Virus record (IMG/VR): IMGVR_UViG_3300009703_004107
Location: 1 to 27,567 of that record
DNA length: 27,567 nucleotides
Origin: a virus
Strand: one strand, 5' to 3'
Under the pieces are notes generated by a model, which was not told the DNA's origin, searched no databases, and worked only from the letters and a program-made list of their open reading frames with translations. This document shows positions 849 through 24,475 of the stretch, piece by piece. Both the position numbers and the translations under genes were made by a program. Within the stretch, counting starts at the first letter, position 1. Each line of letters starts with the position of its first letter.

Positions 849-870
849 ACCGCGACATGAGTGTCATGGT
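849..870 (-). promoter_or_regulatory. 22-bp near-palindromic operator, cassette 1 proximal
   Basis: Plus-strand arms ACCGCGACA and TGTCATGGT around the centre TGAG. Read on the minus strand it has the same arms and CTCA centre as the operator at 19202-19223. Confidence 0.8.
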
Positions 871-2521: not shown

Positions 2522-3039
2522 CAGGGCTCCAGAACGACGTAGCCCTGGAGGTCCACGCTGCGCTCAGGGCAGAGGCGGACCTCCTGCTGTGCGACCCGTC
2601 GTCCCAGGGCGCTCGCAGCGGCCCCCAGGGCGGCCTCCATCTCGCGCCTGCTCACGTTGCGGTAGTACCCTGGAACCGGGGACCCGGCGTGCTCTCCGCG
2701 CCCAGGGGCGGCACAGGTGAACACGAACAGCCCGCCCGGCGCGGTAACCTCCAGGGCCCGCCGCACAGTCCGGGGCCAGTGGGGGTCGTGTTCGAAGACC
2801 TCGGTGGAGACCACGACCTGCCAGCCCCCGTCTCGGGCTGGCGCCTCGTGGGCCATCGAGACAACGTCCACGCCGGGCCCAGCCTGGGCATCCACGCCCA
2901 CGTACTCATCCCCAGGTTCGAACAGGTCCCGGGCCGTCCCGTTCATGTTGAACGAGCCCAGCTCCAGGGTCGGACCCCGCCAGCGATGGCGGTGCCGCGC
3001 ACGGACGTGCCGGAGCCAGTCGATGACTGCGGCGTGCAT
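2521..3039 (-). CDS. Class I SAM-dependent methyltransferase
   Basis: A compact Methyltransf_11-like Rossmann fold: motif I LELGSFNMNG at residues 25-34, an acidic end of strand 2 at Asp50 (YVGVD), and the later motif VVVSTEVFEHD around 75-85, followed by the APGGLFVFTCA strand. Substrate is unknown; small-molecule and sugar methylation are common for this subfamily. The ATG at 3039 is preferred over the long upstream extension because it forms a TGATG overlap with the preceding stop. It lies a few genes from an epimerase and a TylF-type methyltransferase, suggesting a shared glycan pathway. Confidence 0.8.
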   Translation of the reverse strand: MHAAVIDWLRHVRARHRHRWRGPTLELGSFNMNGTARDLFEPGDEYVGVDAQAGPGVDVVSMAHEAPARDGGWQVVVSTEVFEHDPHWPRTVRRALEVTAPGGLFVFTCAAPGRGEHAGSPVPGYYRNVSRREMEAALGAAASALGRRVAQQEVRLCPERSVDLQGYVVLEP

Positions 3040-4085: not shown

Positions 4086-4372
4086 CGAGGAGCCTCCATG
4101 ACGGTCGCGCTGTAGCCGTGCTCCTCGGAGCGGTGGATGGTGACGTCGATCAGCCCGTGCATCGTCCCGACGGCAGACTGGACGGCTTCCTGGATCGCGT
4201 CGGACTCGTCCTCATCGATGACGACGAGGGCCTCCTCGGAGAGGTCGAAGTGGAGCCCGGCCGGATGCAGGAATACGACTGTCCCGCGGCTGACGTCGAG
4301 GATCAGCCTCCAGGGCGGCCCGAACGCCAGCGCCATCGGGGACATCTGGCCCGGGGTGACGTCCCCGCTCAC
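4082..4372 (-). CDS. Hypothetical acidic protein, 96 aa
   Basis: The GTG at 4372 overlaps the epimerase stop (GTGA), and the stop overlaps the next ATG (ATGA), so the gene is locked between two neighbours by translational coupling. The protein is acidic in its middle (FDLSEEALVVIDEDESDAI) and probably alternates strands and helices, but no known domain is visible. An ORF extending upstream to 4453 exists but would overlap the epimerase heavily, so the short form is preferred. Confidence 0.7.
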   Translation of the reverse strand: MSGDVTPGQMSPMALAFGPPWRLILDVSRGTVVFLHPAGLHFDLSEEALVVIDEDESDAIQEAVQSAVGTMHGLIDVTIHRSEEHGYSATVMEAPR

Positions 4373-7782: not shown

Positions 7783-8400
7783 TCAGGCGCCTCGGTGGGT
7801 CTCGTACCCGACCCGCCACCACGCCTGATGCCGGCCGCATCGCTCCAGCAGCGGCTCCGCACCCGTCTCCCTGCACCACTGGTAGAAGGCCCGTCGAGCG
7901 CCCTCCCACCAGCCGAAGTCATCCAGGACGATCACCCCGCCGTTCGGGACCGCGTCGGCCAGGAGTCGGAGCCCGGTCAGGACCGAGTCGTACCAGTCGC
8001 CGTCGATGTGGAGCAGGGCCACCTGACCGATCTCCTGGACCAGCGGTGGCAGGGTCTTGCGCCAGTCCCCTTGGATCATCCGGGGCCGGGAGCCCAACGC
8101 CCGGAGGGACTCCTCGCACTCGCCGAACGAAGCACTCATCGACCCGGTCAACCCTCCGGCAGCTGGCCCGTCCACCTCCGGCCGGGCGGCCGGAATACCG
8201 GCCCAGGTGTCGAACAGCCACAGCGGCCGGCCTGGGGTCGCCAGGAGCGCCGCGGACCCGCCCTTGTTCGTGCCCAGCTCGACGATCGCACCGGGCGGCA
8301 GCGGCCCGTTGGCCGAGGTGAACAGGTTGAACAGGGCCTCGTCGTCGGGGCACAGAGACCGGGACCGGGCGAAGGCCAGCGCCCGCGCTGAGTCGATCAC
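7783..8400 (-). CDS. TylF/MycF-family sugar O-methyltransferase
   Basis: A SAM-dependent methyltransferase resembling macrocin O-methyltransferase (TylF): glycine loop VELGTNKGGSA at 40-50, FDTWAG at 63-68, the HIDGDWYDS segment at 131-139 and LDDFGWWEGA at 159-168. The acidic residues in these last two motifs (Asp132, Asp134, Asp160, Asp161) correspond to the metal-binding and catalytic positions of the family, which methylates sugar hydroxyls. At 205 residues it is slightly shorter than typical. The GTG start overlaps the preceding stop by four bases. With the epimerase it suggests synthesis or tailoring of a deoxysugar. Confidence 0.85.
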   Translation of the reverse strand: MIDSARALAFARSRSLCPDDEALFNLFTSANGPLPPGAIVELGTNKGGSAALLATPGRPLWLFDTWAGIPAARPEVDGPAAGGLTGSMSASFGECEESLRALGSRPRMIQGDWRKTLPPLVQEIGQVALLHIDGDWYDSVLTGLRLLADAVPNGGVIVLDDFGWWEGARRAFYQWCRETGAEPLLERCGRHQAWWRVGYETHRGA

Positions 8401-8870: not shown

Positions 8871-9494
8871 CTATCCGGGCTGGGCAGGGTCGAAGGCGAA
8901 GGCAGACCGGTAGCGGTCGATGATCCTGGCGGCGATGATCGGGTAGACACTCTCGCCCCGGTCGGCCCGGCCGGCGAGGGTGTAGGCGTAGCCGCCGATG
9001 CGCTCAGACTTCTTACCCAGACCGGGGCTGGTGTTGAACAGCTCCGCGATCGTCAGGCGCTCGGCGAGGGTCAGGGACAGCTCGTCCTGGGACGAGGCCA
9101 CGATGCCGGCCGTCCAGACCACGGTGACGTTCTGGCGCCCCACCGGGAAGTAGGCCTTGGAGCCCTCCAGCCTCAGGTTGCCGGTCTCCGTGACGTAGTA
9201 CGAGTCCGAGTCCATGACGGTGCCGCTCGCACCACCCTGGGTGCCGGTGGTCACGCTGGTGATCGAAGCGACCGGCCACTTCGGCAGCCGGATCTCGTTC
9301 ATCCCGGTGCGCATCACGTCGAACGCCTGGGTGTAGGACGTGGTCGAGGCCTTGTTCGTGAGCCCCCCGCCGATGTCGGCCAGGATCAGGCCGTGGACCA
9401 CCGCCATCAGGTCGTCGATCAGGTCGTCGTGCTCCGTCACCGCGGCAGGGATCCGCAGCATGAGCTTGACCTCGGCCCTGGTGGTGAATGCCAC
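8871..9494 (-). CDS. Head-tail connector protein (HK97 gp6-like)
   Basis: The pattern is typical of HK97 gp6/SPP1 gp15-type connector proteins: an N-terminal helix pair opening FTTRAEVKLMLRI, then EHDDLIDDLMAVVHGLI, a central beta region (MNEIRLPKWPVASITSVT, DSDSYYV, LRLEGSKAYFP, NVTVVWTAG), and a C-terminal helical stretch (LSLTLAERLTIAELFNT) ending near ISAR-like arginines. These form a ring under the portal. The GTG start lies 6 bp after the upstream stop. Confidence 0.8.
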   Translation of the reverse strand: MAFTTRAEVKLMLRIPAAVTEHDDLIDDLMAVVHGLILADIGGGLTNKASTTSYTQAFDVMRTGMNEIRLPKWPVASITSVTTGTQGGASGTVMDSDSYYVTETGNLRLEGSKAYFPVGRQNVTVVWTAGIVASSQDELSLTLAERLTIAELFNTSPGLGKKSERIGGYAYTLAGRADRGESVYPIIAARIIDRYRSAFAFDPAQPG

Positions 9495-9500
9495 GGTGGA

Positions 9501-10019
9501 CTACCCCGCCGCTGCGGCGGTCGGTTCCGGCAGGCGACTGATCCGGCCGACCAGCATGGTGATCGCCCCCATCCGGGGCTCATCCTTGGAGCGCTCCCTG
9601 TCGAGCATCCCCCGCAGGACCACGAGGTCGTCGTACTCGCCCGCGTTCAGCCGGCGCCGGAGGATCTTGACGGGCTGCTCCAGCGGGTCTTCTACCGCCG
9701 CCACCGCGGGGTCCGGGTCCGGGGCCATGATCGGGGGCGGGGTCCGGGCCCAGGTGCCGTCCTCCAGCCGGGTCCACTCCGCCTTGAACACGGACGTCCG
9801 ATCGCGCCACCCGAGTCGGTTCTGCCGGTCCCGGGAGGTCTTGTGCGAGAGGAACACCAGCGGGCGGTCCTTGCCGAGAAGCTGGACCCGCCGCGTCTGC
9901 CGAGTCGGCTCCGCGTAGCAGACCACGATCTTCGGGATCTTGGGGTCCAGCGGGCCCACGTACTCCATGACGAACTGGAACCCGCGCTCCGGCGGACCGA
10001 CCTCCGCACGCATCCTCAT
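9501..10019 (-). CDS. Hypothetical protein, 172 aa, between capsid and connector genes
   Basis: GGAGGACACG precedes the ATG at 10019, which is preferred over a second ATG two codons later. The N-terminal half is beta-rich and basic (EPTRQTRRVQLLGKDRPLVFLSHK). The C-terminal half after a Pro-rich segment is helical (LEQPVKILRRRLNAGEYDDLVVLRGMLDRE in parts). No family is recognised. The position between the major capsid gene and the connector suggests a minor head protein. Confidence 0.65.
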   Translation of the reverse strand: MRMRAEVGPPERGFQFVMEYVGPLDPKIPKIVVCYAEPTRQTRRVQLLGKDRPLVFLSHKTSRDRQNRLGWRDRTSVFKAEWTRLEDGTWARTPPPIMAPDPDPAVAAVEDPLEQPVKILRRRLNAGEYDDLVVLRGMLDRERSKDEPRMGAITMLVGRISRLPEPTAAAAG

Positions 10020-12846: not shown

Positions 12847-15480
12847 TCACAGGCCTGGGTGATCGACCACCGGACCCAGCCTGACCGCCGCACCGGTGTC
12901 CACCTCGGACCGGGTCCAGATGACCAGCACGCACCGGCAGTTGCCCCGGCACTGAGTGTCACCACCGGGCTGCACCGAGAGGGTCGAGAGCGGCCGGAAC
13001 CCCTCCAGGCCTTCCCGTTCGCAGTCCACGCAGGTCCGGTTGTCCCCGACCACGACCCACTCGACGTACCACTCGACCTCGCCCTCGACCCCCTCAGCCC
13101 GCTCGACCTCTCGCAGCCCTTCCAGCAGGACGGTGTTCGACAGGTCGTTCAGCTTGCCGGACCAGTTGTAGATCCGGTGGGCCTGGGAGTCGAAGGCCGC
13201 AGCGGAGGTCCCCAGCAAGGCTGCCTCGTGCTCGTCCTCAGCATCGATGGCACGGGCCGCCGAGCGGGTCGCCTGCCGAAGCGACTCGGCGACCCGGCGC
13301 CGGACGGTCTGGAACGGTCCGTCCTGGGCGGTCAGCCAGCCCATCGCGAGACCGAAGTACTGCTCCGCCCGGTCCCCGTGGTCCGCGACTACCTCCGCCA
13401 CACCGGTGAAGTCCGAGGCCGCATCGCGGCCGATCTCTGCAGCCCGCTCGTACAGCGGCCCGGTCGCCGCTCGCCAGCGGACCTCCAGCTTGTCGAACGT
13501 GTCCGCCAGCGCGTTGAGGGCGACCTGTGCGGCCTCCTCGGTGACACCTCCGCGGTCCCGCTCATAGGCGCGGCCTACGATGGCCAGGACCTCGTCTCGG
13601 GCCTCCTCCCAGAGCGGCCGGACATCGATCGCGTAGCGCGAGATGACGTCGCCCAGGGCCGGGAGATCCAGCGTGCGGTAGCCCTTGAATCGGCCATGCG
13701 GCTGCCAGTCAGACGGCAGGTCCCGGGCCCGCCGGTAGGTCAACTCGCCGGCCAGCGCCAGGGCGGCAGGCCGGGGCAGGAGCCCGGCGCCAACGAGGCC
13801 CATGAGTCCAGCGTCCGGCTCCTCCGAGCCGCAGTCGCAGTCGTTGTCGTGGACGTGCCCCCGGACCCGGCCACGACGGGCGCTCCCGGTCAGGGCGATG
13901 TCCAGCGCCAAGGACAGGGCTCGGGGGTCGACGATGTCGGCGACATGCCCCACGATCCGGTTGTGCTCGGCCCAGGTCCGCTCCGCCCAGGTTGCTTCCA
14001 CAGCGGCGGCCACCTCTTCAGGCTCCTCGGGCCCCCCCTCGCCAGCGTCATCGGGCTCGCCCGGGGGCGCCGCGTCATCGGGATCACCCCCGGAGCCACC
14101 ATCAGGATCGGGGTCCGGGTCGTCGTCGCCAGACAGCGCGTCCTCCAGGATGACCGGGGCTGCGGAGACCGTGATCACGTCTCCGCTATCGACCGGATCG
14201 TGACCCAGGATCTTGCGCCCCTCGTTCCGGCTCAGGACTCCCTCCTGGATCAGCCCGGTGATCGTCTTGCCCTGGCGCTCCTGGTCCTCAGGAGACAGCT
14301 TCACGTCCCGGTCGAACCGGAAGCGGGTCAGGCCCACGCGGTCCGGGGAGGTCGCCAGCAAGGGCAGGATTCGGGCCGTGACCTTGGCCTCGATGATCTC
14401 CAGGATCGGGACGATCAGGTGGCTCGCGCCGACGTCCACCTGGGCCTGCATGTTGGCCCGGTTGGCGTCGGCCACCTCGCCCATCTCCGCCGGGGTCACC
14501 CCGAACGATCGCCAGATCACCCGCCTGATGTCCTGCACGATGTCGCGCATCGACAGGTCCTTGGGGGTGTGTCGCAGCTCGACCCAGGAGGCGCCAGCCC
14601 CGGTCGGGTCTGGATTCGTCAGGACCCGGATCTTGTGATCCTGCCCACGCATGGACTGAAGGTCCGCCTTGGCCCGGTCAGCGGCCTTCCCGCTGATGCC
14701 GGTCAGGACGATGATCCCCGGAGGGATCTCGTCGGCGTCGTAGGCGAGCATGACGTGGTTCGCAGATCGGAGCAAGGTGATCACCTGATCCACGATGGAC
14801 TCGATGATCGGGTTCCCCTCCGGGCCTGCGGTCGTCGGGAACAGGCGGAAGAACACGATCTCGTCGGCCTCAAACGGGACCGCCTTCCCGGTCGGGAGCC
14901 CGTCGTCGGACTCGTAGGCCTGCAGGTACCCGGTGAGACGCCCGTGATCGTCGGTCTGGGGCTTCATCGTGGACCCGCGGAGCGCGACCAGCTCCGACAA
15001 CGCCTTGGCCCGGTTCCGGACCAGCTCAAGGGCGCCCTGGTCGAACACCAGCAGGTCCGTGAGCATCTTCGTCATCAGTTCCTGCCACGTGTCGCCGTCC
15101 TCGTTCGGCGCCGACAGGAAGCGGGACTGAGTGTCGGACTCTTCCCGGGCCGCATCCCACTGATCGTCGTCGGGCTCCACCGTCGGCTCGACGGCGTGGT
15201 CCCAGGTCGCGATCCGCCTGACGATCGAGTCGATCGCTGCACGGACGTCCGGGGTCCGGCGGTACACCGTCCACATCTCGCCCTGGGTCAGCCAGCGCCC
15301 CAGGGACGAGTCGACCTTGTACTTGACTCCTGCGACCTCGACCGTGCCGCCCAGCGGCTTCCCCTTCCGAGCCCGGGTATCCGTCGTCAGCCAGCCCCCA
15401 GGCTGGTGAGTGGGGTGCCGCGCACGGCCGATGGGAACAACGGGGGGGCCAGCGTGAAGCAGGACGGCGTTCGACATCAT
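12847..15480 (-). CDS. Portal protein fused to MuF-like head morphogenesis domain
   Basis: The 877-residue product has two parts. Residues 1-445 read as a portal: VYRRTPDVRAAIDSIVRRIA, LLVFDQGALELVRN, EIVFFRLFP, the EIPPGIIVL strand and the WRSFGVTPAEMGEV segment typical of HK97/SPP1-type portals. A highly acidic, Gly/Pro-rich linker (about 450-490) follows. The rest resembles the SPP1 gp7/Mu F family, ending in DNRTCVDC and QCRGNCRCVLV, the conserved cysteine signature. The portal ring is the DNA entry gate; MuF-type proteins are minor head proteins, some injected with the DNA. A GGGTGAG site precedes the ATG; a second ATG follows immediately. Confidence 0.88.
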   Translation of the reverse strand: MMSNAVLLHAGPPVVPIGRARHPTHQPGGWLTTDTRARKGKPLGGTVEVAGVKYKVDSSLGRWLTQGEMWTVYRRTPDVRAAIDSIVRRIATWDHAVEPTVEPDDDQWDAAREESDTQSRFLSAPNEDGDTWQELMTKMLTDLLVFDQGALELVRNRAKALSELVALRGSTMKPQTDDHGRLTGYLQAYESDDGLPTGKAVPFEADEIVFFRLFPTTAGPEGNPIIESIVDQVITLLRSANHVMLAYDADEIPPGIIVLTGISGKAADRAKADLQSMRGQDHKIRVLTNPDPTGAGASWVELRHTPKDLSMRDIVQDIRRVIWRSFGVTPAEMGEVADANRANMQAQVDVGASHLIVPILEIIEAKVTARILPLLATSPDRVGLTRFRFDRDVKLSPEDQERQGKTITGLIQEGVLSRNEGRKILGHDPVDSGDVITVSAAPVILEDALSGDDDPDPDPDGGSGGDPDDAAPPGEPDDAGEGGPEEPEEVAAAVEATWAERTWAEHNRIVGHVADIVDPRALSLALDIALTGSARRGRVRGHVHDNDCDCGSEEPDAGLMGLVGAGLLPRPAALALAGELTYRRARDLPSDWQPHGRFKGYRTLDLPALGDVISRYAIDVRPLWEEARDEVLAIVGRAYERDRGGVTEEAAQVALNALADTFDKLEVRWRAATGPLYERAAEIGRDAASDFTGVAEVVADHGDRAEQYFGLAMGWLTAQDGPFQTVRRRVAESLRQATRSAARAIDAEDEHEAALLGTSAAAFDSQAHRIYNWSGKLNDLSNTVLLEGLREVERAEGVEGEVEWYVEWVVVGDNRTCVDCEREGLEGFRPLSTLSVQPGGDTQCRGNCRCVLVIWTRSEVDTGAAVRLGPVVDHPGL

Positions 15481-15575
15481 CTCACCCGGGTGACAGGCGC
15501 CATCGTAGCGCGTCGCCTTGCGGCTCGTCGCGACCTCCCTGGGCTCGGGCTACGAGTGGAACACGGAGGCCATCC

Positions 15576-16337
15576 ATGACCCAGCCCGCCCAGGCGCTTG
15601 TGCCTGACACCCCGCCCGCTTTCAGCCCGGCCATCCAGCCGACCACCCGGTACCTCGGGTTCGTCCTCGACCGAGCCACACCCGGTTGGGGCGCGGCCTC
15701 GATCATGCTCCAGGACGACGACTTCGACGATCTCCTGGCAGCGATCCCGATGGACTGCGCGGCGTGGCACATCGTCGACCGCGCAGCGGGCCGGATCATG
15801 GCCGGCTCGGACCCGAACACCGACAAGCTCCACAAGCCCTTCCCGAGGCTGGCCCGCAACCACCTCGGCGACGTCATCGAGACCCACGACCGCGACGCCT
15901 CCGAGGCTGCCCGGCTGGGCGCCGGCCCCGACTGGACCCACCGCTACTGGACCTTCGTGGCCCGGAAGGGGGTGTGGGGAGCCTGGACCGCATCCGGCAC
16001 CTCCGAGGACGTCTTGACCGCCATCCGGGCCGGGCGGGCGTCAGGGGCCGACTGGCACGTCCTGGACACCGAGACCTCCACCGTTGGCGCCACCCACGAG
16101 GGCCCCGGGATCCGGCACGTCATCCCGTCGATCGTCCAGGTCCTCGCCTACGAACAGGAGGTGGCGGCATGGCGCATCGCCCGCATCGCCGAGACCGGTG
16201 GGCCTGTGATCACCGAGGACGACGCGCTCACCCTGGAGTGGGCCCAGTCTGGCACGCTGCCGGAGGGGTGGCAGGACCTCCCGACCGACGAACTCCGCGC
16301 CCTGGTCGAGAAGCACGAGGCAGCCGCTCAGTCCTGA
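15576..16337 (+). CDS. Hypothetical protein, 253 aa, opposite strand to the virion operon
   Basis: A clear GGAGG precedes the ATG, and residue usage looks like real coding sequence. The protein has a Pro-rich N-terminus, then alpha/beta segments (TRYLGFVLDRATPGWG; MDCAAWHIVDRAAGRIM; THRYWTFVARKGVWGAW) and an acidic helical end. No domain is recognised. It stands alone on the plus strand between divergent portal (15480) and convergent 16328-17287, with the 3' ends of the latter pair overlapping by 10 bases. A lone reversed gene in a late operon often marks a separately expressed accessory gene (moron). Confidence 0.75.
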   Translation: MTQPAQALVPDTPPAFSPAIQPTTRYLGFVLDRATPGWGAASIMLQDDDFDDLLAAIPMDCAAWHIVDRAAGRIMAGSDPNTDKLHKPFPRLARNHLGDVIETHDRDASEAARLGAGPDWTHRYWTFVARKGVWGAWTASGTSEDVLTAIRAGRASGADWHVLDTETSTVGATHEGPGIRHVIPSIVQVLAYEQEVAAWRIARIAETGGPVITEDDALTLEWAQSGTLPEGWQDLPTDELRALVEKHEAAAQS

Positions 16338-17287
16338 GGGACCCCGGGGCAGCCAGCCTTGACCCATGCCCAGACCGCGACGTCCAGAGGGCTAAGGTCG
16401 TCGGCGGGATCGATGTTGTAGACCGTGTTGAGGGCGGTCTCACGCTCCGGGCCGTCAGTCCCCAGCTCCCGCAGGACCCGGAGCATCGCCCTGGTCGTCG
16501 GGTGATGCTCGGGCCCCGTCGGTGGGCTCACAGAACCAGCACCGGGCAGGATCCCCACCCGGACGTGGTCGGGGTACCGGATCGCGTAGACCTCCTCGTA
16601 GTGGAGAGCCCAGTCGGAGCCCGGGAACCAGCGCGGGTCCAGCGGCTTGGGGTCGGTCAGGCCGCGGTCCGCGGCCCAGAGGACGAAGTCCCCAGCGGGC
16701 AACACCCGGAAACCTGACCGCTGGCGGGCCAGGGCTGCCTCCAGGGGCTCCGGAGGCCCTCCGGGGGACCCCGGGGCCGGGGAGAGGGCGTCGACGGCCC
16801 TGGCCGCCAGTGCGGCGGCATCCTGAGCCAGTGCCCAGAGGTCTGGATCGATGGGCGGCAGGTCCGCGTCAGGCGATGCGGCGGCCAGCGTCGAGGACGA
16901 CGGGGCCCCAGCTCCGGCCAGGGTCTGGATCGCCACGTCCAGGGACAACTGGTAGGCATGGTCCACCTTGCAGCCGACCCGGACCTGGACCCGGCCGGCC
17001 CGGACATCGCTCGCCGGGGTCGGGTCTGGGTCGAACCCCAGGGACAGGCCCGTCGCCAGGATGATCGCGAACCGGTCAGCGCCGTCCCAGAAGCCCACTG
17101 ACCACTGGCCGGGAGGGGGTGTCAGCATGGTCGGGCCCTTCTGGGTCGGGGCAACGCCGGCCGGCGTTCCGGACAGCCGGATCCCGGTTCCCGGCTCCCG
17201 GGGTTCGAAGTGGCTTGCATCCGGGGCCAGCCCGGTTCCGGACAAGATCCTGGACATGGCGCCGGCCAGCTTCGTGTCATCGCTCAT
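16328..17287 (-). CDS. Hypothetical protein, 319 aa
   Basis: Coupled to the upstream gene by an ATGA overlap. The product has a Gly/Pro-rich N-terminal third, a helical middle (WALAQDAAALAARAVDAL) flanked by Pro-rich linkers, and a C-terminal part (WALHYEEVYAIRYPDHVRVGILPG, in two pieces) that ends in a helical segment with conserved-looking Trp residues (LDVAVWAWVKAGCPG). No family is recognised. It lies between the SprT-like gene block and the portal. Confidence 0.7.
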   Translation of the reverse strand: MSDDTKLAGAMSRILSGTGLAPDASHFEPREPGTGIRLSGTPAGVAPTQKGPTMLTPPPGQWSVGFWDGADRFAIILATGLSLGFDPDPTPASDVRAGRVQVRVGCKVDHAYQLSLDVAIQTLAGAGAPSSSTLAAASPDADLPPIDPDLWALAQDAAALAARAVDALSPAPGSPGGPPEPLEAALARQRSGFRVLPAGDFVLWAADRGLTDPKPLDPRWFPGSDWALHYEEVYAIRYPDHVRVGILPGAGSVSPPTGPEHHPTTRAMLRVLRELGTDGPERETALNTVYNIDPADDLSPLDVAVWAWVKAGCPGVPQD

Positions 17288-17577
17288 AGGTCAGCCCGCA
17301 GGAAGCAGGGCAACCTGCAAGCTGGGACCGCAGCCCGGATCTCGGCCTGGGAGCCCCGCAGAAAGACGCCACTGACGTACCTGAGGGAGACCTCGTGGTC
17401 TACGGGGGCCACGTCCGGGTCGAGGTGCTCGCCGACGGACGCGCCGCCCAGGACGGCGGCACCCTCCAGGTCCTCCCGGACCCTGTCGATCCGCCCCGCA
17501 AGGGCGTCGTGGCCGCCAAGGGACAGGGCGTCCTGGGCGTCGCTGAGCAGGTCGCGCAGCTCGGAAAGGGTGGTCAT
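17284..17577 (-). CDS. Hypothetical helical protein, 97 aa
   Basis: GGAGGA precedes the ATG. The first ~45 residues form a predicted amphipathic helical region (LSELRDLLSDAQDALSL; LAGRIDRVREDLEGA). The second half is beta-like and carries two cysteines (VPACRLPC). No domain is recognised. The stop overlaps the next start (ATGA). Confidence 0.65.
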   Translation of the reverse strand: MTTLSELRDLLSDAQDALSLGGHDALAGRIDRVREDLEGAAVLGGASVGEHLDPDVAPVDHEVSLRYVSGVFLRGSQAEIRAAVPACRLPCFLRADL

Positions 17578-17607
17578 CTCGTCCTCCTGGTCAAGTAGCT
17601 GGGTGGG

Positions 17608-18567
17608 TCATCGGTCGCGACCAGCTGCCCGGCGCGTGCCGGTGTTCCGCCAGTCCCGGTAGTGGATGACCGACTGCTTCGGTGCCGTCGTCGGGCCCCG
17701 CACCTTGCGGCTCGCGTACTCGACCTCCGGCTGACCGTGGGCGACCCGCAGCTGGGCCATCATGTACCAGTCCTTGGGGTACCCGCCGCGGACCTTCCAG
17801 ACGCCGCTGATGTCGACCCCTGGGAATGCCTCCTGAACCGCGGCGACACAGACCTTGTAGAACGCCCGGCCGTGCATGTTCCGGCGGCCCCGGGCGGAGT
17901 AGGTGGTGGTCTTGGGCACCTGATGGGACAGCTCGTGGATCAGGAGTTGGGCCAGGGTCCACTGGTCGATGTCAACCGGGATCCGCATCAGGATCCTCCG
18001 GTCCATCGACCGCGACCACCCTGAGCACTTCGCTCCGGCAGGCTTGACCTTGACCTCCAGGGTGGGGGCGCCCCCATTCCGGAAGCAGGCCTTCCGGAGG
18101 GTTGGAAGCTGGGCCAGCCGCCAGAACAGGCCGTCGACGTCGATCCCGTTGACCACCCGGCGCTCGGAGACCGGGACCGGACAGGGGACCGTCTCCTGGG
18201 CATCGGTGGCGGCCTGCTGTGCCGGCGGGGAATCGGGAACGACCCGGACCCGGGAGGGGCAGCCGTCGCAGTCCTCGGCGGCGTGCATGGCGGCCAGGGC
18301 GCGGGCCCTGGTCGGGTATCCGGTGACCCGGCCGTGGGTCTCACAGGCGTTGACCCAGGCATCGTTCTCGGTCCCCAGGAACCGGGAATCACAGACCCGG
18401 TAGACCCCGAACAGGCACCCGGTCTCGGCCCGGCGGTACTGGACGGCCCCAGGGGTCCCGTCGATCAGGGCTCGACGCGCGGCCCGGTTCAGGTACCTGC
18501 CGGGGTCCAGGGAGCCGGTGACCGGCGTGGGGTAGGCGTCCAGGACGGGGTAGGGGGCGCGGGCCAT
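17608..18567 (-). CDS. SprT-like zinc metalloprotease
   Basis: The C-terminal half carries the SprT-type metal site: HELSH (His211, Glu212, His215) and a third histidine in MHGRAF (His232), the HExxH...HGxxF arrangement of the family. SprT/Spartan relatives cleave DNA-bound proteins in cells; the role in a phage is unknown. The N-terminal part contains a cysteine module (NACETHG ... AEDCDGC, about 74-103) that may bind zinc. The ATG at 18567 is 1 nt after the preceding stop; a longer ORF upstream overlaps the 80-aa gene and is discarded. Confidence 0.8.
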   Translation of the reverse strand: MARAPYPVLDAYPTPVTGSLDPGRYLNRAARRALIDGTPGAVQYRRAETGCLFGVYRVCDSRFLGTENDAWVNACETHGRVTGYPTRARALAAMHAAEDCDGCPSRVRVVPDSPPAQQAATDAQETVPCPVPVSERRVVNGIDVDGLFWRLAQLPTLRKACFRNGGAPTLEVKVKPAGAKCSGWSRSMDRRILMRIPVDIDQWTLAQLLIHELSHQVPKTTTYSARGRRNMHGRAFYKVCVAAVQEAFPGVDISGVWKVRGGYPKDWYMMAQLRVAHGQPEVEYASRKVRGPTTAPKQSVIHYRDWRNTGTRRAAGRDR

Positions 18568-18568
18568 A

Positions 18569-18811
18569 TCAGGCTCCCATCCACTGGCCGGTCTGGTCGT
18601 ACAGCTCCTGGATCTCGGGGGTCCAGCCATCGTCCCGGGAGGTGGCGACCCGCAGGCCCCGGGCCCGGGCTTCCACCAGGGTCGCGGGGAGCAGCTGGCC
18701 CTGGATGACCCAGGCGCGGCCGGCGGCATCCCAGCGGGCGCCCTTGCTCTTGAGCCACTGACGGTTGGGATAGGTGCGGCCGGTGAACGTGTAGGTGGTG
18801 CTGTAGGTCAT
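18569..18811 (-). CDS. Small protein with K-GARWD...W motif (DUF5710-like)
   Basis: 80 residues. The N-terminal part TFTGRTYPNRQWLKSKGARWD followed by RAWVI has the pattern of small phage and plasmid domains (DUF5710-like) in which a Lys-x-x-Gly-Ala-x-Trp-Asp turn precedes a tryptophan strand; their function is unclear. The C-terminal end is helical. GGAG precedes the ATG. It is the second gene after the leftward core of cassette 2. Confidence 0.6.
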   Translation of the reverse strand: MTYSTTYTFTGRTYPNRQWLKSKGARWDAAGRAWVIQGQLLPATLVEARARGLRVATSRDDGWTPEIQELYDQTGQWMGA

Positions 18812-18876
18812 CTCGGGCTCCGGTGTCCCGGCATCTCGCCGGGGTTGGATGGGGTGGGGTGGAGTGCCGATCGCGC

Positions 18877-19053
18877 CTAGGACCGGACGCCGCTGTAGGC
18901 CTGGGCGTAGACCTCGCACCAACGCATGTTGTCGCCGCGGGTCCTGTCGTTCTCCAGGCGCTCCTTGCGGGCCTGCTTCGCCTCGGCGTTCAGCCTGTGG
19001 AGCTTGGCGATGTTGGCGTCGTAGGCGGCCTGCTCGGTAGCGGTGCGGGTCAT
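18877..19053 (-). CDS. Small helical protein, 58 aa, first gene after cassette 2
   Basis: A GGAGAG site is 3 nt from the ATG. Residues 8-40 are a charged helix rich in Ala, Lys, Glu and Arg (AAYDANIAKLHRLNAEAKQ; ARKERLENDRTRG). The end has one Cys and two Tyr. No family is recognised. The promoter-like core at 19096-19081 would start transcription near 19070, placing the ribosome binding site at a natural distance. An upstream-extended start within the core itself is rejected. Confidence 0.65.
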   Translation of the reverse strand: MTRTATEQAAYDANIAKLHRLNAEAKQARKERLENDRTRGDNMRWCEVYAQAYSGVRS

Positions 19054-19080
19054 GTTCTCTCCGGGGTTGCTGGACATAGA

Positions 19081-19096
19081 TGCACGACTCGTGCCA
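19081..19096 (-). promoter_or_regulatory. Promoter-like core, cassette 2, leftward
   Basis: Minus strand TGGCACGAGTCGTGCA, preceded by T and, 7 bp further up, by GTCGAG (19109-19104). Drives the 18877-19053 gene and probably the 80-aa and SprT-like genes beyond. Confidence 0.65.
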
Positions 19097-19201
19097 ATAT
19101 TGGCTCGACGGGTGCAGCCCCGCCCACTGCAACGACTCGCGCACTGCCCCATCCCGAACAGCCGACGTACCCCCCGCCAGCATGCGCACTTTCAGCCCCA
19201 A

Positions 19202-19223
19202 ACCATGACACTCATGTCGCGGT
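19202..19223 (+). promoter_or_regulatory. 22-bp operator, cassette 2 proximal
   Basis: Left arm ACCATGACA, centre CTCA, right arm TGTCGCGGT. Ends 5 bp before the rightward core. Confidence 0.85.
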
Positions 19224-19228
19224 TTGTA

Positions 19229-19244
19229 TGGCACGCATGTTGCT
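19229..19244 (+). promoter_or_regulatory. Promoter-like core, cassette 2, rightward
   Basis: TGGCACGCATGTTGCT matches the sigma-54 consensus TGGCACG-N4-TTGCW exactly in the specified bases. GTCGCG, part of the operator, is 7 bp upstream. Predicted start near 19255. Nothing codes on the plus strand ahead, so the RNA would run antisense to the 19671-19321 gene. Confidence 0.6.
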
Positions 19245-19291
19245 CGCCGACGCGCTTGCGCCCACTGTCTACAATGACTACGACGACGAAA

Positions 19292-19313
19292 ACCAAGACA
19301 CTCATGTCATGGT
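19292..19313 (+). promoter_or_regulatory. 22-bp operator, cassette 2 middle
   Basis: Left arm ACCAAGACA, centre CTCA, right arm TGTCATGGT. Lies just beyond the stop of the 19321 gene. Confidence 0.8.
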
Positions 19314-19320
19314 TCAATGG

Positions 19321-19671
19321 CTATCTGGACGACACCGCGTCGTAGAACCGCGCCCAGGGCGTTCTGGTGTACCAGTCCGAGACCGCGACACTCACGTCAT
19401 GGTCCTGGATCGCCCATGCCAGAAGCTGGCCCACGGCGTCCTCGATGTCCTCGACGTAGGCAGTCTCCAGGGACCGGCACCGAGAGGTCGACGCTGCCAC
19501 GACCTTCTCGCCGTCAGCGTTGCCGTCGCCCAACCCCATCAGGTCGACCGTGCCAAGCTCCAGGACCTCCTCCCCCGGGACCAGGAGGTAGAGGATCCAC
19601 ATCTGGTCCATGCAAGGCTCCCAGGCCAGCCGGAACGGTGGCTCCCGGTCCGGGACCACGCGCAGGTTCAC
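19321..19671 (-). CDS. Hypothetical protein, 116 aa
   Basis: The GTG start overlaps the upstream stop by four bases. The product begins with a beta-like segment (MNLRVVPDREPPFRLAWEP), continues with hydrophobic MDQMWILYLLVPGEEVLELG and ends in a helical and Trp-containing tail. The third operator of cassette 2 lies inside its coding sequence (around codons 90-97), so that site must be compatible with protein coding. No family is recognised. Confidence 0.65.
   Translation of the reverse strand: MNLRVVPDREPPFRLAWEPCMDQMWILYLLVPGEEVLELGTVDLMGLGDGNADGEKVVAASTSRCRSLETAYVEDIEDAVGQLLAWAIQDHDVSVAVSDWYTRTPWARFYDAVSSR
19382..19403 (+). promoter_or_regulatory. 22-bp operator, cassette 2 distal, inside a gene
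   Basis: Left arm ACCGCGACA, centre CTCA, right arm CGTCATGGT. It is kept at the 90-bp spacing despite falling inside the 19321-19671 gene. Confidence 0.75.
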
Positions 19672-20129
19672 CCCTTCCTCCGGAGCCGTCTGGCGCGGGC
19701 TCGTCGCTGGTGCCTATTCAGCGCCTTCACACCATGGTCTGGGACCAGATCGCGAGCCATCTTCACGACCTCCTCTCGCATCGCGTCCTCGTCGAACACC
19801 GGCGCGATCACCCGCGATGCATCCAAGGTCGGGCTGGGCTGAAGGCCGGGGGTGATCCCTACACCCTGAGCCTTCCGGACTCCGTCCGCCGCCAGCCGCA
19901 CCGCGGCCTGGGTGATCAACTTCCCGTCCGAGGGCAGGCCGGCCTTGGCCAGCACGGCGGTCATCTCCTCGTCGTGGATCTCCGCACTGTACCCGGGGCC
20001 CCCGGGCCTCATCCCAAGCTCGGCAGCGCTGGCGACCACGCGGTCAACGCCGGTGGCGTCCCGGAGGATGACCACCCCAGACGGCACCCTGGGGTCCCGC
20101 TTGACCGGGAAGGTGAGGTCCAGGCTCAC
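19668..20129 (-). CDS. Hypothetical protein, 153 aa
   Basis: The GTG at 20129 overlaps the upstream stop (GTGA). The N-terminus is beta-like (MSLDLTFPVKRDPRVPSGVVILRD, in parts). The middle is alpha/beta and acidic. The last 25 residues are strongly basic (ALNRHQRRARARRLRRKG), a likely nucleic-acid contact. The ORF could be opened further upstream but would overlap the neighbour. No family is recognised. Confidence 0.65.
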   Translation of the reverse strand: MSLDLTFPVKRDPRVPSGVVILRDATGVDRVVASAAELGMRPGGPGYSAEIHDEEMTAVLAKAGLPSDGKLITQAAVRLAADGVRKAQGVGITPGLQPSPTLDASRVIAPVFDEDAMREEVVKMARDLVPDHGVKALNRHQRRARARRLRRKG

Positions 20130-20431
20130 GGCAGCAAAACCCAGAGGCCCAGGCCACGAGCGCGGCCCCAAGCGCGCCGCCACCAAGGCATCCGGGCCCA
20201 TGCCCGTTCAGCCCAACCCCAGCGCCACTCTTCCCGGACTCGGAGGAGTCGCTCCGTGGCCGTGAAGCTGTTGAGGTTGAGTGCCCGCTCAGCCTCCTCC
20301 ATCGTCAGCCCTGTCTGGTCCGGGAGGGTCTTCCACCCATCCCGGAGGCGTTCACCCCAGGGGCTCAGGCCCGGCCCGGTCTCGTCAGGGGCGAGCACCG
20401 GGTACAGGGTCTGGCGGATCTCGCGGCTCAC
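20126..20431 (-). CDS. Hypothetical Trp/Arg-rich protein, 101 aa
   Basis: Held between two GTGA overlaps. The last third is unusually rich in Trp and Arg (EEWRWGWAERAWARMPWWRR) and ends in a short hydrophobic stretch (GLGLWVLLP), so a membrane-surface or membrane-inserted role is conceivable. The N-terminal part appears helical with a possible HTH-like segment (TGLTMEEAERALNLNSFTA). Neither assignment is secure. Confidence 0.6.
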   Translation of the reverse strand: MSREIRQTLYPVLAPDETGPGLSPWGERLRDGWKTLPDQTGLTMEEAERALNLNSFTATERLLRVREEWRWGWAERAWARMPWWRRAWGRARGLGLWVLLP

Positions 20432-20778
20432 CCGGCGATCCCGTCGCCTGCGTTGGCGCCCAGCTTGACCCCAACCACTTCGGGCTCGGGCGGGAGCGGG
20501 GACGCCAGGGACAGGGTCTCGTAGCGGTGGTCACCATCCTGCCACAGCCGCACCTGGATCGTCGCACGGTGGATGATGACCCTCCCGGTCGGGGACCGTT
20601 CAGCGACGGCCAGGAGGCGCACCAGGGCTTCCCTGTCGATGATCCAGCGGACGTCCCGGACATGGCCCTCCGGGGGGATGGCCGTCTCCCGAATGAGCGT
20701 CGGAGCCCCGGCCCGCTGAAGGGGGCGGAAGGTCTCCCGGATCAGGTCCGGGTCGAAGATGGGTCCGTGGTCGCTCAT
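20428..20778 (-). CDS. Hypothetical protein, 116 aa
   Basis: ATG start in an ATGA overlap with the upstream gene and a GTGA overlap with the downstream one. The centre alternates charged and hydrophobic residues (VRWIIDREALVRLLAVAE; GRVIIHRATIQVRLWQDGDHRYETL), which suggests a small alpha/beta fold. No family is recognised. It is part of a run of six short genes between cassette 3 and cassette 2. Confidence 0.65.
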   Translation of the reverse strand: MSDHGPIFDPDLIRETFRPLQRAGAPTLIRETAIPPEGHVRDVRWIIDREALVRLLAVAERSPTGRVIIHRATIQVRLWQDGDHRYETLSLASPLPPEPEVVGVKLGANAGDGIAG

Positions 20779-21041
20779 GTCGGTGGAGCCTCGTGGTCTG
20801 CGGCGGCATCCGCACCAGCCTGGAGGGCTTCAGCAACCTGTCGCTCAAAGTCGATCCGCTCGACAAGCGGCGCCTCAAACGGCCGGACGCGGCCCTGGGC
20901 CGTGGACTGCTCGGCGTGGGCCTCGCACCGGTCCCCGGTTGGGGTCGTGCAGACCGCCCTGGCTCCGCAGTCCACTGGCTGCTCCTCGTCCCAGACGATC
21001 GCGGTGCAGGTCGGATGCCTCGGGGTACCGTTGTGCGCCAT
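20775..21041 (-). CDS. Small Cys/His protein, 88 aa
   Basis: Cysteines at TCTAIV, VDCGA, AVCTT and RCEAHA give a C...C...C...CxxH-type arrangement compatible with one zinc-binding site in the first 45 residues, followed by an amphipathic helix (DFERQVAEALQAGADAAAD). The ATG at 21041 has a weak GGTGG upstream. The 75 bases before it, up to 21117, hold no gene and no clear promoter. Confidence 0.6.
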   Translation of the reverse strand: MAHNGTPRHPTCTAIVWDEEQPVDCGARAVCTTPTGDRCEAHAEQSTAQGRVRPFEAPLVERIDFERQVAEALQAGADAAADHEAPPT

Positions 21042-21116
21042 CGGACCACCGTAGCCTGGGCGGACACCGGCCGCGACGAGGACCCTCCAGGGCGCCCGGG
21101 ACCGGAGGGGCGGGCC

Positions 21117-21425
21117 CTACGTCCCGGTGTCGCCCTCGACAGCCTCACAGGCCACCATGCGGGTCAAGAGGACCGCCCGGACCTGGGCCCGGTTGCCTTC
21201 CCAGGCCTTGGGGCAGCGCCCGTACAGGGCCCGGATCGCCCGGAGCTGGAACGCCAGGGACAACTCGCGCAGGTCCCCCCTGCGGAGGTCATCGCACTGG
21301 TCCGCGATGACCCGGAGGGCCTGCAGATCCTGGTAGTCGGTCCCCGGCCGGACCCGGAGGTAGCCCCCGGTCTTGGGGAGGTGGAGCAGGTCGGCCTCGG
21401 CCTTCCAGTCGGTTGCGGGATTCAT
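21117..21425 (-). CDS. Hypothetical helical protein, 102 aa
   Basis: ATGA overlap with the upstream stop. After a short N-terminus with YLRVRPG, the rest looks all-helical (DYQDLQALRVIADQCDDL; LRELSLAFQLRAIRALYG; NRAQVRAVLLTRMVA). No family is recognised. Confidence 0.65.
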   Translation of the reverse strand: MNPATDWKAEADLLHLPKTGGYLRVRPGTDYQDLQALRVIADQCDDLRRGDLRELSLAFQLRAIRALYGRCPKAWEGNRAQVRAVLLTRMVACEAVEGDTGT

Positions 21426-21658
21426 GCAGCACCTCGGACTGCCCAGGAGTGGGCGATGGTCAGGAGCCAGCCCGGCATCGGGATCGGGCTGGACAGGATG
21501 GACTCGGCAAGCAGGATCAGGCCGTCCTCGGATCGGGCCCCGGACTGCAGGGCCTCCAAGACCTGCTTGGAGGCCTGGATGGCGGCCGTCTCGTCACCGT
21601 CCTCCAGCGCCATCGCGGCCTCGATGCACAGGTCCTCAACCGTGGGGGTGGGGGTCAT
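21422..21658 (-). CDS. Hypothetical acidic helical protein, 78 aa
   Basis: GGAGGAG precedes the ATG at 21658, a strong site that fixes the start. The sequence is acidic and helical with TPR-like spacing of small and large residues (DLCIEAAMALEDGDETAAIQ; ASKQVLEALQSGA; GLILLAESILSS). A single TPR-like helical pair is possible, but the length is short. The stop overlaps the next start (ATGA). Confidence 0.65.
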   Translation of the reverse strand: MTPTPTVEDLCIEAAMALEDGDETAAIQASKQVLEALQSGARSEDGLILLAESILSSPIPMPGWLLTIAHSWAVRGAA

Positions 21659-21683
21659 CGTCTCCTCCGTGGGGGGTAGCATC

Positions 21684-22202
21684 TCAGGCCGCCTGGGCGA
21701 ACCGGTCGGCCCGATCAGCGGCGTAGGCGCGGGCCTCGTCGGCCGTCCAGCCCTCGCTCGCAGCGGCCTTGAGGAATGCCTGCTCGACGCCCCAGATAGT
21801 GACGTTGAGGAACTGGAGGGTGTTGTCCGGGCCGGTCCAGACGCCCCGGCTCCAGCCCGCGCTCTTGCGGGACCGGAGCAGGGCCAGGGCCCGCCCGGTC
21901 TCTTTGGCGCCGTAGTAGGGCAGGGCCATGAAGTAGGTGGCCCAGGTCTGGCGGTCCGCGGTCCGCTTCCCGCCGATCGCGGTGAAGTCCCACATCGACT
22001 CGGCGGCATCGACCAGGGTGTAGGCGTCGCCGTACTCCAGGCCGTTCAGCGGGTGGCTGGGGAGGCAGGCCCGGAGGCCCTTGCGCTCGATGAGGCGGGT
22101 CGCCACGTTGCGGCCGGCGGTGCGCTCGCCCTCGGTGGAGCCGCGCTCGACGCGGGCCCAAACTTTGGCGAACTTGCGGGCGGTGGCGTTGGTAGTCGTC
22201 AT
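21684..22202 (-). CDS. Hypothetical protein, 172 aa
   Basis: Second gene of the block behind cassette 3; starts 4 nt after the stop of the 61-aa gene. The protein has a basic N-terminal helix (ARKFAKVWARVERG), a middle with aromatic residues (YGDAYTLVDAAESMWDFTAIGG; TWATYFMALPYYGAKE, given in parts) and a C-terminal helix (GVEQAFLKAAASEGW; DEARAYAADRADRFAQ). No family is recognised. Confidence 0.7.
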   Translation of the reverse strand: MTTTNATARKFAKVWARVERGSTEGERTAGRNVATRLIERKGLRACLPSHPLNGLEYGDAYTLVDAAESMWDFTAIGGKRTADRQTWATYFMALPYYGAKETGRALALLRSRKSAGWSRGVWTGPDNTLQFLNVTIWGVEQAFLKAAASEGWTADEARAYAADRADRFAQAA

Positions 22203-22206
22203 CGGT

Positions 22207-22392
22207 TTAGGCCTCGTAGACGTAGACGGTGGCGCCATCGATCCGGGCGTAGACGCCCAGGCCGCGGACGTAACGGTAGAACGACCGCGCCTGAGCGGCG
22301 GTATCGAAACCGAACATGGTGGACTTGTCGGTCAGGTCGATCGTCGCGCCCTGGGCCGCGGTGATGATTGCGTTGTAGGTCTCGTCGGTCAT
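22207..22392 (-). CDS. Small protein, 61 aa, first gene after cassette 3, probably leaderless
   Basis: The ATG at 22392 lacks any ribosome binding site, and the predicted start of transcription from the core at 22420-22405 is about 22394, so the mRNA may begin essentially at the start codon. The product ends in a beta-alpha pattern (FDTAAQARSFYRYVRGLGVYAR, then DGATVYVYE) compatible with a small ferredoxin-like or RRM-like half. No family is recognised. An alternative ATG at 22425 lies inside the core and is rejected. Confidence 0.6.
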   Translation of the reverse strand: MTDETYNAIITAAQGATIDLTDKSTMFGFDTAAQARSFYRYVRGLGVYARIDGATVYVYEA

Positions 22393-22404
22393 GCTCGGCT
22401 TAGA

Positions 22405-22420
22405 TGCATGACCCGTGCCA
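22405..22420 (-). promoter_or_regulatory. Promoter-like core, cassette 3, leftward
   Basis: Minus strand TGGCACGGGTCATGCA, preceded by T and by GTCGCG 7 bp upstream (22433-22428). Drives the 61-aa and 172-aa genes and probably the run of small genes down to 19321. Confidence 0.65.
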
Positions 22421-22524
22421 ACCATGGCGCGACATCTGCCATCCGGCTACCTGGGCGGTCTCGCAGATCCCCGGACTGAGACCTCCAGCGCGCCTGGACT
22501 CAGTGACCCGAAGCGGCCGCCCAA

Positions 22525-22546
22525 ACCATGACACTCATGTCATGGT
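22525..22546 (+). promoter_or_regulatory. 22-bp operator, cassette 3 proximal (perfect arms)
   Basis: Left arm ACCATGACA, centre CTCA, right arm TGTCATGGT: the two 9-bp arms are exact inverted repeats. The best copy in the window. Confidence 0.88.
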
Positions 22547-22551
22547 CAGGA

Positions 22552-22567
22552 TGGTACGCATGTTGCT
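22552..22567 (+). promoter_or_regulatory. Promoter-like core, cassette 3, rightward (antisense to terminase)
   Basis: TGGTACGCATGTTGCT, one base from the sigma-54 consensus in the -24 box. 5 bp from the operator upstream. Predicted start near 22578; the RNA would enter the large terminase gene antisense from its 3' end. Confidence 0.6.
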
Positions 22568-22614
22568 CAAGGATCCGCTTCCGCACAGTGTCTACGCTCG
22601 CGAGGACTGCGAAT

Positions 22615-22636
22615 ATCGCGACACTCACGTCATGGC
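22615..22636 (+). promoter_or_regulatory. 22-bp operator, cassette 3 middle
   Basis: Left arm ATCGCGACA, centre CTCA, right arm CGTCATGGC. Both outer positions deviate; the GACA and GTCA inner bases are kept. Confidence 0.7.
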
Positions 22637-22702
22637 CTGGAGCCCTCAGGCGGCCCTTGCGGTACAAGCCCGCAACAGGTCCCAACTCACAGCCACTCCC
22701 AG

Positions 22703-22724
22703 ACCGCGACACTCGTGTCATGGT
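22703..22724 (+). promoter_or_regulatory. 22-bp operator, cassette 3 distal
   Basis: Left arm ACCGCGACA, centre CTCG, right arm TGTCATGGT. Ends 5 bp from the terminase stop codon. Confidence 0.78.
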
Positions 22725-22729
22725 CATCC

Positions 22730-24475
22730 TCAGGAGGCGTCGTAGGAGCCCCCTGACTGCGCCAGCATGGCGGCCACCGCCGCGTAGGCGTCCGAGAACC
22801 GGAAGTGGTCCGCGGCGGAGCCCTCGGTCCAGATCACCCGGCCCTTCTTCTCGTCCAGGACCCGGACCGGGGCTCGCATCTGGTCCGACCACCCCAGGAC
22901 CGAGAACGAGTCCGAGGGGAAGGTCCGTCGGTCGAACCGGATCTCGTCCAGGGTCGAGTCGAGCAGTTGCGTGCGGTCGACGGTGACCACCCGGGTCTTC
23001 CAGTTGAGGCGCCGACCGAAGCGGTCTCGGCCGATCCGGTCGGTCGGGTGGAACCGGCACAGCCAGACGTCGCAGTCCGAGCCCCACCATCGATCCCGGA
23101 TCTCCTGGGCCTTCCGTGCCTCTGGCTGAGCGTCGATCACGCAGACGTCGACGTGAAACCGCTCGATCAGGTCGTCCAGCTCTTCGAACCGAACGACCGT
23201 CCCAACGAACACCCCCTCGCGCATCGTCACCGGGCCCACGTCTTCCTCGTCGTCCTCGTCCGCAGGCCTCGTCGCCAGCCGGATCCGGTCGATGTTCACG
23301 TTCAGCAGGGACCCCACGTCCACGCCCATCACGACGAGGTCGTCCTCGTAACTGGGCCCACCCACGTAGTCGTTCTCGTCGGCCTGGGCCGACGTCCTCA
23401 GGTCCTCGACCGAGACCCGGGCTCCGGCCTGTTCGAAAGCGGTCCCGAGGTTCGACGTGTAGAACGTCGCCAGAGCCACGCTGTCACCTTGCGCCAGGAT
23501 CCACTCGGCGAATAGCTCGTGAATGGACTGACTGAGCACGTCCAGCCGTGTCATCCGGTAGCCGTGTCGGAGCACCATCGATCGCTCCGCCACCCAAGCC
23601 CACCAGCACTCGGCCCGCTCAAAGGGCTGCTCGCACCGTCGGCACAGGGGCCTCGCATCGCCCTTCACGACCCCGCCACCGGCGCCCAGCGGGGTAGCCC
23701 CGGCGCCGGGCGGGGGAGTCTGCCGCTCGCGGTCACGGAGGGCCCAGCGGCCGTCGTCCTCCTTCCGGATGAAGTTGACGAACCAGTCCAACGGCTGAGC
23801 CTCTCCACAGTGGGAGCACCGGTAGTGCCAGCGCCGTCCGTCAGACCTCTGGAAGACCGAGTCGATCCCCATCTTGGGGTAGGTCGGGTTCCCCAACCGG
23901 AACAGCTGCGGGTAGGGCGAGGCCCGGAGTCGGTCCCGCGCCTTGGCGAGGTTCACCGGGTCACACTGGTCGTACTCATCCACGAAGAAGGCATCGCAGG
24001 AGAACTCCAAGAAGTCGCTCGGGGTGTTGGCCCCGAGGAACATCAGCGCTCCGCGGCCGAAGCGCTTGAGCGACTGCGAGCCGGTCGCTGCACCGGACTG
24101 GCGGAGGGCGCCCTCGTCCTCGCCTGGGAGCCTGCGCCGGTAGGCTGGATTCTCGTTCAGCATCGGGTCGATCCGCTTCCTGACGAACCGACCCCGGACC
24201 GCGTAGGTGGGGAGGCAGTAGCCGCAGACCCGGCCCTTCCAGCCGGCCAGCCTGAGCATCAGGGCGATGAACAGCTCGCTCTTGCCGGTCTGGACCGCTG
24301 AGATGATGTCCGCGCCGTCCATGTCCTCAAAGATGGCGTACAGCGGAGCGAGGTAGGGCATGGTCCCGAAGGACATCGGGAGCCCGCGGCCGGAGCGGTG
24401 ATCGATGAGCGCCATCGCTAGGAGGGGATGCTCCTGGCGCAAGGTGGACATCGCCGAGTGGTAGGCCTCGATCAC
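22730..24475 (-). CDS. terL: Terminase large subunit (ATPase and nuclease)
   Basis: Packaging motor. The N-terminal ATPase has a Walker A-like AVQTGKSE at 60-67 and Walker B DAFFVDEYDQ with acidic pair Asp166/Glu167. Between ATPase and nuclease lie two CxxC pairs (Cys220/223 and Cys278/281), a zinc module known from lambda GpA-type terminases. The RNase H-like nuclease has Asp386 (VVMGVDVG), Asp448 (VCVIDAQPE) and Asp562 (FRFSDAYAA). The 581-residue length suits the family. The GTG start lies 4 nt after the preceding stop. The putative small subunit is encoded at 27078, with five small genes between, an unusual separation. Confidence 0.9.
   Translation of the reverse strand: MIEAYHSAMSTLRQEHPLLAMALIDHRSGRGLPMSFGTMPYLAPLYAIFEDMDGADIISAVQTGKSELFIALMLRLAGWKGRVCGYCLPTYAVRGRFVRKRIDPMLNENPAYRRRLPGEDEGALRQSGAATGSQSLKRFGRGALMFLGANTPSDFLEFSCDAFFVDEYDQCDPVNLAKARDRLRASPYPQLFRLGNPTYPKMGIDSVFQRSDGRRWHYRCSHCGEAQPLDWFVNFIRKEDDGRWALRDRERQTPPPGAGATPLGAGGGVVKGDARPLCRRCEQPFERAECWWAWVAERSMVLRHGYRMTRLDVLSQSIHELFAEWILAQGDSVALATFYTSNLGTAFEQAGARVSVEDLRTSAQADENDYVGGPSYEDDLVVMGVDVGSLLNVNIDRIRLATRPADEDDEEDVGPVTMREGVFVGTVVRFEELDDLIERFHVDVCVIDAQPEARKAQEIRDRWWGSDCDVWLCRFHPTDRIGRDRFGRRLNWKTRVVTVDRTQLLDSTLDEIRFDRRTFPSDSFSVLGWSDQMRAPVRVLDEKKGRVIWTEGSAADHFRFSDAYAAVAAMLAQSGGSYDAS

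Follow-up and report, generated by a model that had tools for sequence, protein, structure and literature searches.

Sigma-54 promoters open only once an ATP-driven activator has relayed a specific signal, and transcription from them starts about 12 nt past the C of the -12 element. Among phages, actinophage stoperators and the phiC31 CIRs are repressor operators dispersed at several transcription units. Activator sites of the bEBP type located about 100-150 bp upstream of sigma-54 promoters work via DNA looping (PMC7057263), and in E. coli norVW three essential NorR sites, upstream of the sigma-54 promoter, serve as a scaffold for the hexamer (PMC2941729).

The viral DNA analyzed in this study (27,567 nucleotides, IMG/VR record IMGVR_UViG_3300009703_004107, hereafter the window) contains three cassettes, c1, c2 and c3, of three dyads each, which we interpret, with a probability of roughly 0.6, as enhancer arrays with sigma-54-type promoters, each switching on one phage gene block. 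Like the NorR enhancer, the cassettes place three short dyads upstream of a sigma-54-type promoter, but the sites for NorR in E. coli follow one another at 21 and 24 bp whereas those of the cassettes are separated by 87-90 bp, making the cassette pitch a variant and counting against the sigma-54 array reading. The dyads also differ in sequence (GTCA-N3-TGAC-like for NorR, CCATGAC-N6-GTCATGG in the cassettes), and norVW is a host gene, not a phage one. With the classical bEBP UAS of the NtrC, NifA and XylR type the cassettes share dyads placed some 100-150 bp ahead of a promoter of the -24/-12 class (PMC7057263), but they reach 310 bp upstream, consist of three evenly spread sites and are borne by a phage. 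As in the actinophage operators, one near-identical site is repeated at several phage transcription units; unlike them, the sites of the window are grouped in threes and keep a constant distance from a -24/-12 element without overlapping it, and no repressor was recognized.

Eight strong 22-bp dyads were found in the window, comprising the six listed in an earlier note on this DNA, whose coordinates were all correct, and two more at 672(+) and 849(-). Allowing up to three mismatches, ACCRYGACACTCRYGTCRYGGT gave 12 matches at 8 places in the whole window, against 0.01 expected from shuffles, and the leave-one-out PWM scores of the dyad sites were 24-38 bits. A matrix built from the eight strong sites and then used to scan the window revealed a ninth, degenerate dyad at 759(-), which ranked first among 27,138 non-site positions and lies exactly 90 bp from 849. 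Numbering the sites outward from the promoter, c1 is inverted and comprises S1 (ACCATGACACTCATGTCGCGGT; 849-870, minus strand), the degenerate S2 (759-780, minus) and, 87 bp from S2 and in opposite orientation, S3 (672-693, plus). All sites of the other two cassettes are on the plus strand: S1, S2 and S3 of c2 occupy 19202-19223, 19292-19313 and 19382-19403, and those of c3 22525-22546 (with perfect 9-bp arms), 22615-22636 and 22703-22724, the last directly beyond the terminase stop codon. The earlier note had also placed the third site of c2 within a gene, and this site indeed falls in the 3' part of a 116-aa ORF (19321-19671, minus), whose GC3 of 0.89 looks coding. No fourth site was found one unit beyond either end of any cassette. 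A central CTC is invariant across the eight strong dyads, which would be unusual for the symmetric site of a dimer and counts against reading them as bEBP dyads; the dyads of the two other phages described below do not keep it.

Oriented alignment of the cassettes showed that one more block, TGGCACG-N4-RTGCA, is conserved some 100 bp downstream of S1; we take it to be the -24/-12 element of sigma-54 promoters. The motif TGGCAC-N6-TGC occurs six times in the window, five of them within cassettes, against 0.28 expected. Each cassette has one such element before the downstream gene (element B): B1 (TGGCACGGTCCATGC; 975-989, plus), B2 (TGGCACGAGTCGTGC; 19082-19096, minus) and B3 (TGGCACGGGTCATGC; 22406-22420, minus). 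A second one (element A) lies between S1 and S2 in the opposite direction, facing away from the gene: A1 (TGGCACAGGCCGTGC; 829-843, minus), A2 (TGGCACGCATGTTGC; 19229-19243, plus) and A3 (TGGTACGCATGTTGC; 22552-22566, plus). Each of these six B and A elements carries a GG-N10-GC core in a TGGCAC-N5-TTGC-like context. Scored with a matrix derived from 42 E. coli sigma-54 ChIP-seq sites (PMC4591121), the six elements are among the top seven matches of the window, with 13.5-17.7 bits compared with a training median of 15.0; A2 is the best match (17.7 bits), and B3 and A3 score 16.1 and 14.3 bits. Window matches of at least 13 bits are concentrated near the dyads (P 3e-5), and no sigma-70-like promoter was found in any of the three cassettes.

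The geometry of the cassettes is constant to within a few bp. Measured from the -12 C of element B, the dyad centers in c1, c2 and c3 lie 129.5, 130.5 and 129.5 bp upstream for S1, 219.5, 220.5 and 219.5 bp for S2, and 306.5, 310.5 and 307.5 bp for S3. The S1-B and S1-S2 distances are thus held within 1 bp, and the position of S3 within about 4 bp. Element A is always 30.5 bp from the S1 center (three of three cassettes) and is directed against the upstream genes; our guess is that it might provide convergent transcription that halts read-through. Element B, for its part, forms the right half of a larger palindrome (957-989 in c1; 19081-19116, GCCAATATTGGC, in c2; 22405-22440 in c3) that carries a weaker GG-N10-GC on the opposite strand, so B could also represent a divergent promoter pair or the site of another protein.

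Each promoter element precedes a small gene or ORF. The first ORF downstream of B1 encodes 37 aa (1038-1151, plus), with GGAG ahead of its ATG, and the first gene downstream of B2 (18877-19053, minus; 58 aa) has a GGAGAG Shine-Dalgarno sequence and heads the block toward the structural genes. Downstream of B3, the start codon of the first gene (22207-22392, minus) is located only 14 nt past the -12 C, which would make the mRNA nearly leaderless; the start codon is at C+29 in c2 and further still in c1, positions that are compatible with transcription beginning about 12 nt beyond the -12 C. The upstream neighbor of c3 is the terminase large subunit gene (22730-24475, minus; phrog_675, PF05876). 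Between the terminase and portal genes, the window holds about 7 kb of small uncharacterized genes (15480-22730), with c2 and c3 inside this insert; the corresponding interval is 0.1-0.9 kb in most related phages and about 4.4 kb in one of them (L030). A nucleotide-sugar epimerase gene and two methyltransferase-like genes were also observed amid the structural genes (2521-3039, 4369-5619 and 7783-8400).

Neither the site, nor the sigma-54 motif, nor a comparable cassette was found in the compared stretches of the capsid/terminase relatives (L010-L030), which speaks against the sigma-54 array reading; Tunturiibacter phages 2-5 have no array, and no close relative of the window was found by its other proteins or by DNA. 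The dyad is present in two other phages, G311 (111,732 bp) and G313 (162,811 bp), both with tail-sheath genes, in neither of which homologs of window proteins were detected. Both came from a looser dyad-pair pattern run over IMG/VR, which required one pair 87-93 bp apart, so the pairs found by it are not independent evidence on spacing. In the two phages the dyads are 87-105 bp apart and lie upstream of GG-N10-GC promoters. G311 has six dyads at 12/14 or better, against 0.3 expected, in two clusters, the second of which the search had not selected (108955, 109047, 109138 and 109242; spacings 92, 91 and 104 bp); nor had it selected a second group in G313 (147668, 147773 and 147874; spacings 105 and 101 bp) or the promoters. 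The best sigma-54 match in the 163 kb of G313 is placed exactly 129.5 bp from the S1 dyad and 216.5 bp from the one after it, so that S1 at about -130 in this phage and in c1-c3 fits the 100-150 bp range of proximal bEBP sites. At the two rightward promoters that leave the arrays of G311, the nearest dyad is 75.5 bp away in both cases, and at a third, leftward one, 87.5 bp.

Clustering of strong sigma-54 matches near the dyads was not significant in G311 or G313 (P 0.08 each), so that the case in these phages rests on the exact distances and on a start-codon rule. In G311, TGGYAY-N7-GC is followed by a start codon at gap 13 in five instances, compared with a single one across the other gaps from 6 to 24. 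At the five promoters (2244, 6236, 108892, 109314 and 109689) the distance from the -12 C to the start codon is exactly 14 nt without exception; the same C+14 position is seen in c3, and C+15 in G313. Such a rule is what is predicted for a -12 element at nearly leaderless genes, and it speaks for GG-N10-GC being a promoter rather than just an arm of an operator. The five G311 promoters make up a set of nearly leaderless sigma-54-type genes, and TAGC or TCGC is commoner than TTGC at the -12 element of this phage, a point against the sigma-54 reading. Also in G311, the -24 element coincides with the right arm of a weak dyad of 22 bp whose outer arms match those of the other dyads (ACCAT...ATGGT; 9138-9340 and 9676-9697 of locus L084, 6223-6244 of L079), as if the same protein might also sit on the promoter. 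The G313 array (L092, 7660-7960) appears more complex, since besides three dyads about 101-105 bp apart it contains partner half-dyads ending in CATACC shortly downstream.

By analogy with known sigma-54 systems, a dimeric activator of the bEBP class (AAA+) would bind the three 22-bp dyads, whose centers lie about 130, 220 and 308 bp ahead of the -12 C, and three dimers would suffice for one hexameric ring. The loaded array would loop to a sigma-54 RNA polymerase waiting in the closed state at element B, and ATP hydrolysis would then open the promoter, the sites thereby acting in activation. Looping to the promoter is the default reading because activator sites of such promoters work in this way. 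The preference of the earlier note for wrapping or filament-like assembly is unsupported, as the sigma-54-type promoter at a fixed distance had been missed. Wrapping of the array round the activator ring is nevertheless possible on arithmetic grounds, given that 90 bp correspond to about one turn about a ring of some 10 nm. Against this reading, neither a bEBP domain (PF00158) nor sigma-54 (PF04552) was detected in the three records (window, G311 and G313), which are linear and possibly incomplete, nor was there a credible match to the GAFTGA motif. As the dyad is in addition common to phages with no detectable protein homology to the window, a host activator is the simplest source, and the protein acting on the arrays is probably a host-encoded bEBP. 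In a host without rpoN the sigma-54 reading would fail; Actinobacteria are an example of such bacteria (PMC3162934).

The main rival reading is that the dyads serve as operators, three per control region, for a repressor or silencer encoded by a phage or prophage; this protein would loop or oligomerize to shut promoters, and the -24/-12-like element would then be either the promoter itself or an extra weak operator. Near-identical dyads dispersed over several transcription units, as seen here, are typical of phage repressors, and immunity repressors shut promoters by looping or oligomerizing. The weaker dyads of G311 with the same outer arms, which overlap the promoter -24 element, would also suit a repressor, as would the position of S1 directly next to element A, whose -12 C is 30.5 bp away and which a protein on S1 could block. 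Nevertheless, element B is free of overlap with any of the nine sites, the closest lying about 130 bp upstream in each of the three cassettes as well as in G313. Among the window proteins scanned, no repressor or integrase was recognized (although the record may be incomplete), and the sharing of the dyad by phages with no detectable protein homology to the window fits a host protein better than a phage immunity repressor. We consider repression an unlikely role for the arrays.

A non-transcriptional function, in which the arrays would serve partition (as centromere-like sites), replication or packaging by wrapping or bridging DNA and the promoters would be coincidental neighbors, is considerably more improbable. 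Evenly spaced repeated dyads do recall centromere or iteron arrays in form, and G313 encodes a ParB-like protein. In contrast, no ParB was recognized among the window proteins scanned, each of the three arrays sits at the start of a different transcription unit and has a promoter element whose distance and orientation are constant, and the combination of array and promoter recurs in G313 and G311.

The exact 90-bp phasing claimed in the earlier note holds for S1-S2, which is 90 bp in all three cassettes, but not for S2-S3 (87, 90 and 88 bp in c1, c2 and c3), and the other phages show spacings that differ by as much as 18 bp. At 10.5 bp per turn, 90 bp are 8.57 turns, in agreement with the 8.6 calculated before, and 88 and 87 bp are 8.38 and 8.29 turns; thus S3 does not keep to one helical face relative to S2, and the 3-bp variation of this interval, about 100 degrees of helix, suggests that it is under looser control. 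The spacers between S1 and S2 in c2 and c3 are 69% identical, and these two cassettes show 77% identity across 116 nt, so that their common spacing is in part inherited. The S1-S2 spacer of c1, however, has only 34-35% identity to its c2 and c3 counterparts, a value that shuffles also reach. The other spacer pairs, including those within a cassette, show 25-40% ungapped identity (z at most 2.1; 0.6-2.1 within cassettes), much like shuffled sequence, and the inter-site DNA is therefore not repeated along with the sites. It is the spacing that is kept, not the sequence, as a comparison of inter-site DNA with spacing bears out for c1 against c2/c3 and within cassettes. Thus, regular spacing as an unconstrained leftover of tandem duplication, as the earlier note had suggested, or of recent copying of the cassettes, to which the kinship of c2 and c3 lends something, is largely refuted by the unrelated spacers, by S1-S2 and S1-B distances that differ by at most 1 bp over the three cassettes, and by similar spacings in unrelated phages. 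The array spacing looks like a real control device common to phages rather than an accident of duplication.

Several further candidates were discarded. A search of viral contigs for GACACTC pairs gave a single match (L009), an unrelated short tandem repeat, and in an Acidobacteria MAG (L038) the GACACTC core recurs in longer palindromes (CCTCGACACTCGTGTCGAGG). The Acidobacteria MAG G001 contains a repeated palindrome, CCTCGACACTCNTGTCGAGG, with the GACACTC core of the phage dyad (L042, L044 and L048), which looks like a dispersed genomic repeat. A link to an Acidobacteria host was dropped, with 0 of 297 and 0 of 396 Acidobacteriota genomes. A match to the combined S1 and A pattern (L054) lies within an ORF with no repeats and was judged a chance occurrence. 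Among the five loci with loose pairs, L058 lies within an AAA+ coding sequence, and at L060 and L061 the dyads are weak and a sigma-54 motif is lacking. A role of the dyads as RNA hairpins was rejected, their arms being often unpaired as judged from the sequence and no Rfam match being found, and a peptide coded across S1-S2 was rejected since substitutions are equal over all codon positions.

In the open-access literature covered, no report of phage promoters of this kind was found. A bolder and rather improbable reading is that a host sigma-54 activator acting on three dimer sites about 90 bp apart times the expression of phage gene blocks, that phages with no detectable protein homology converged on this module or exchanged it, that they read a physiological signal of the host through it, and that the pitch of about 90 bp is one turn of DNA round the ring. 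Phage gene blocks under sigma-54 promoters would, if this is true, tie the phage program to a host signal. The dyad ACCATGAC-N6-GTCATGGT offers a concrete handle on the host protein that would bind it, and the wide, even spacing of the sites provides a natural variant for studying the assembly of three dimers into one activator ring.
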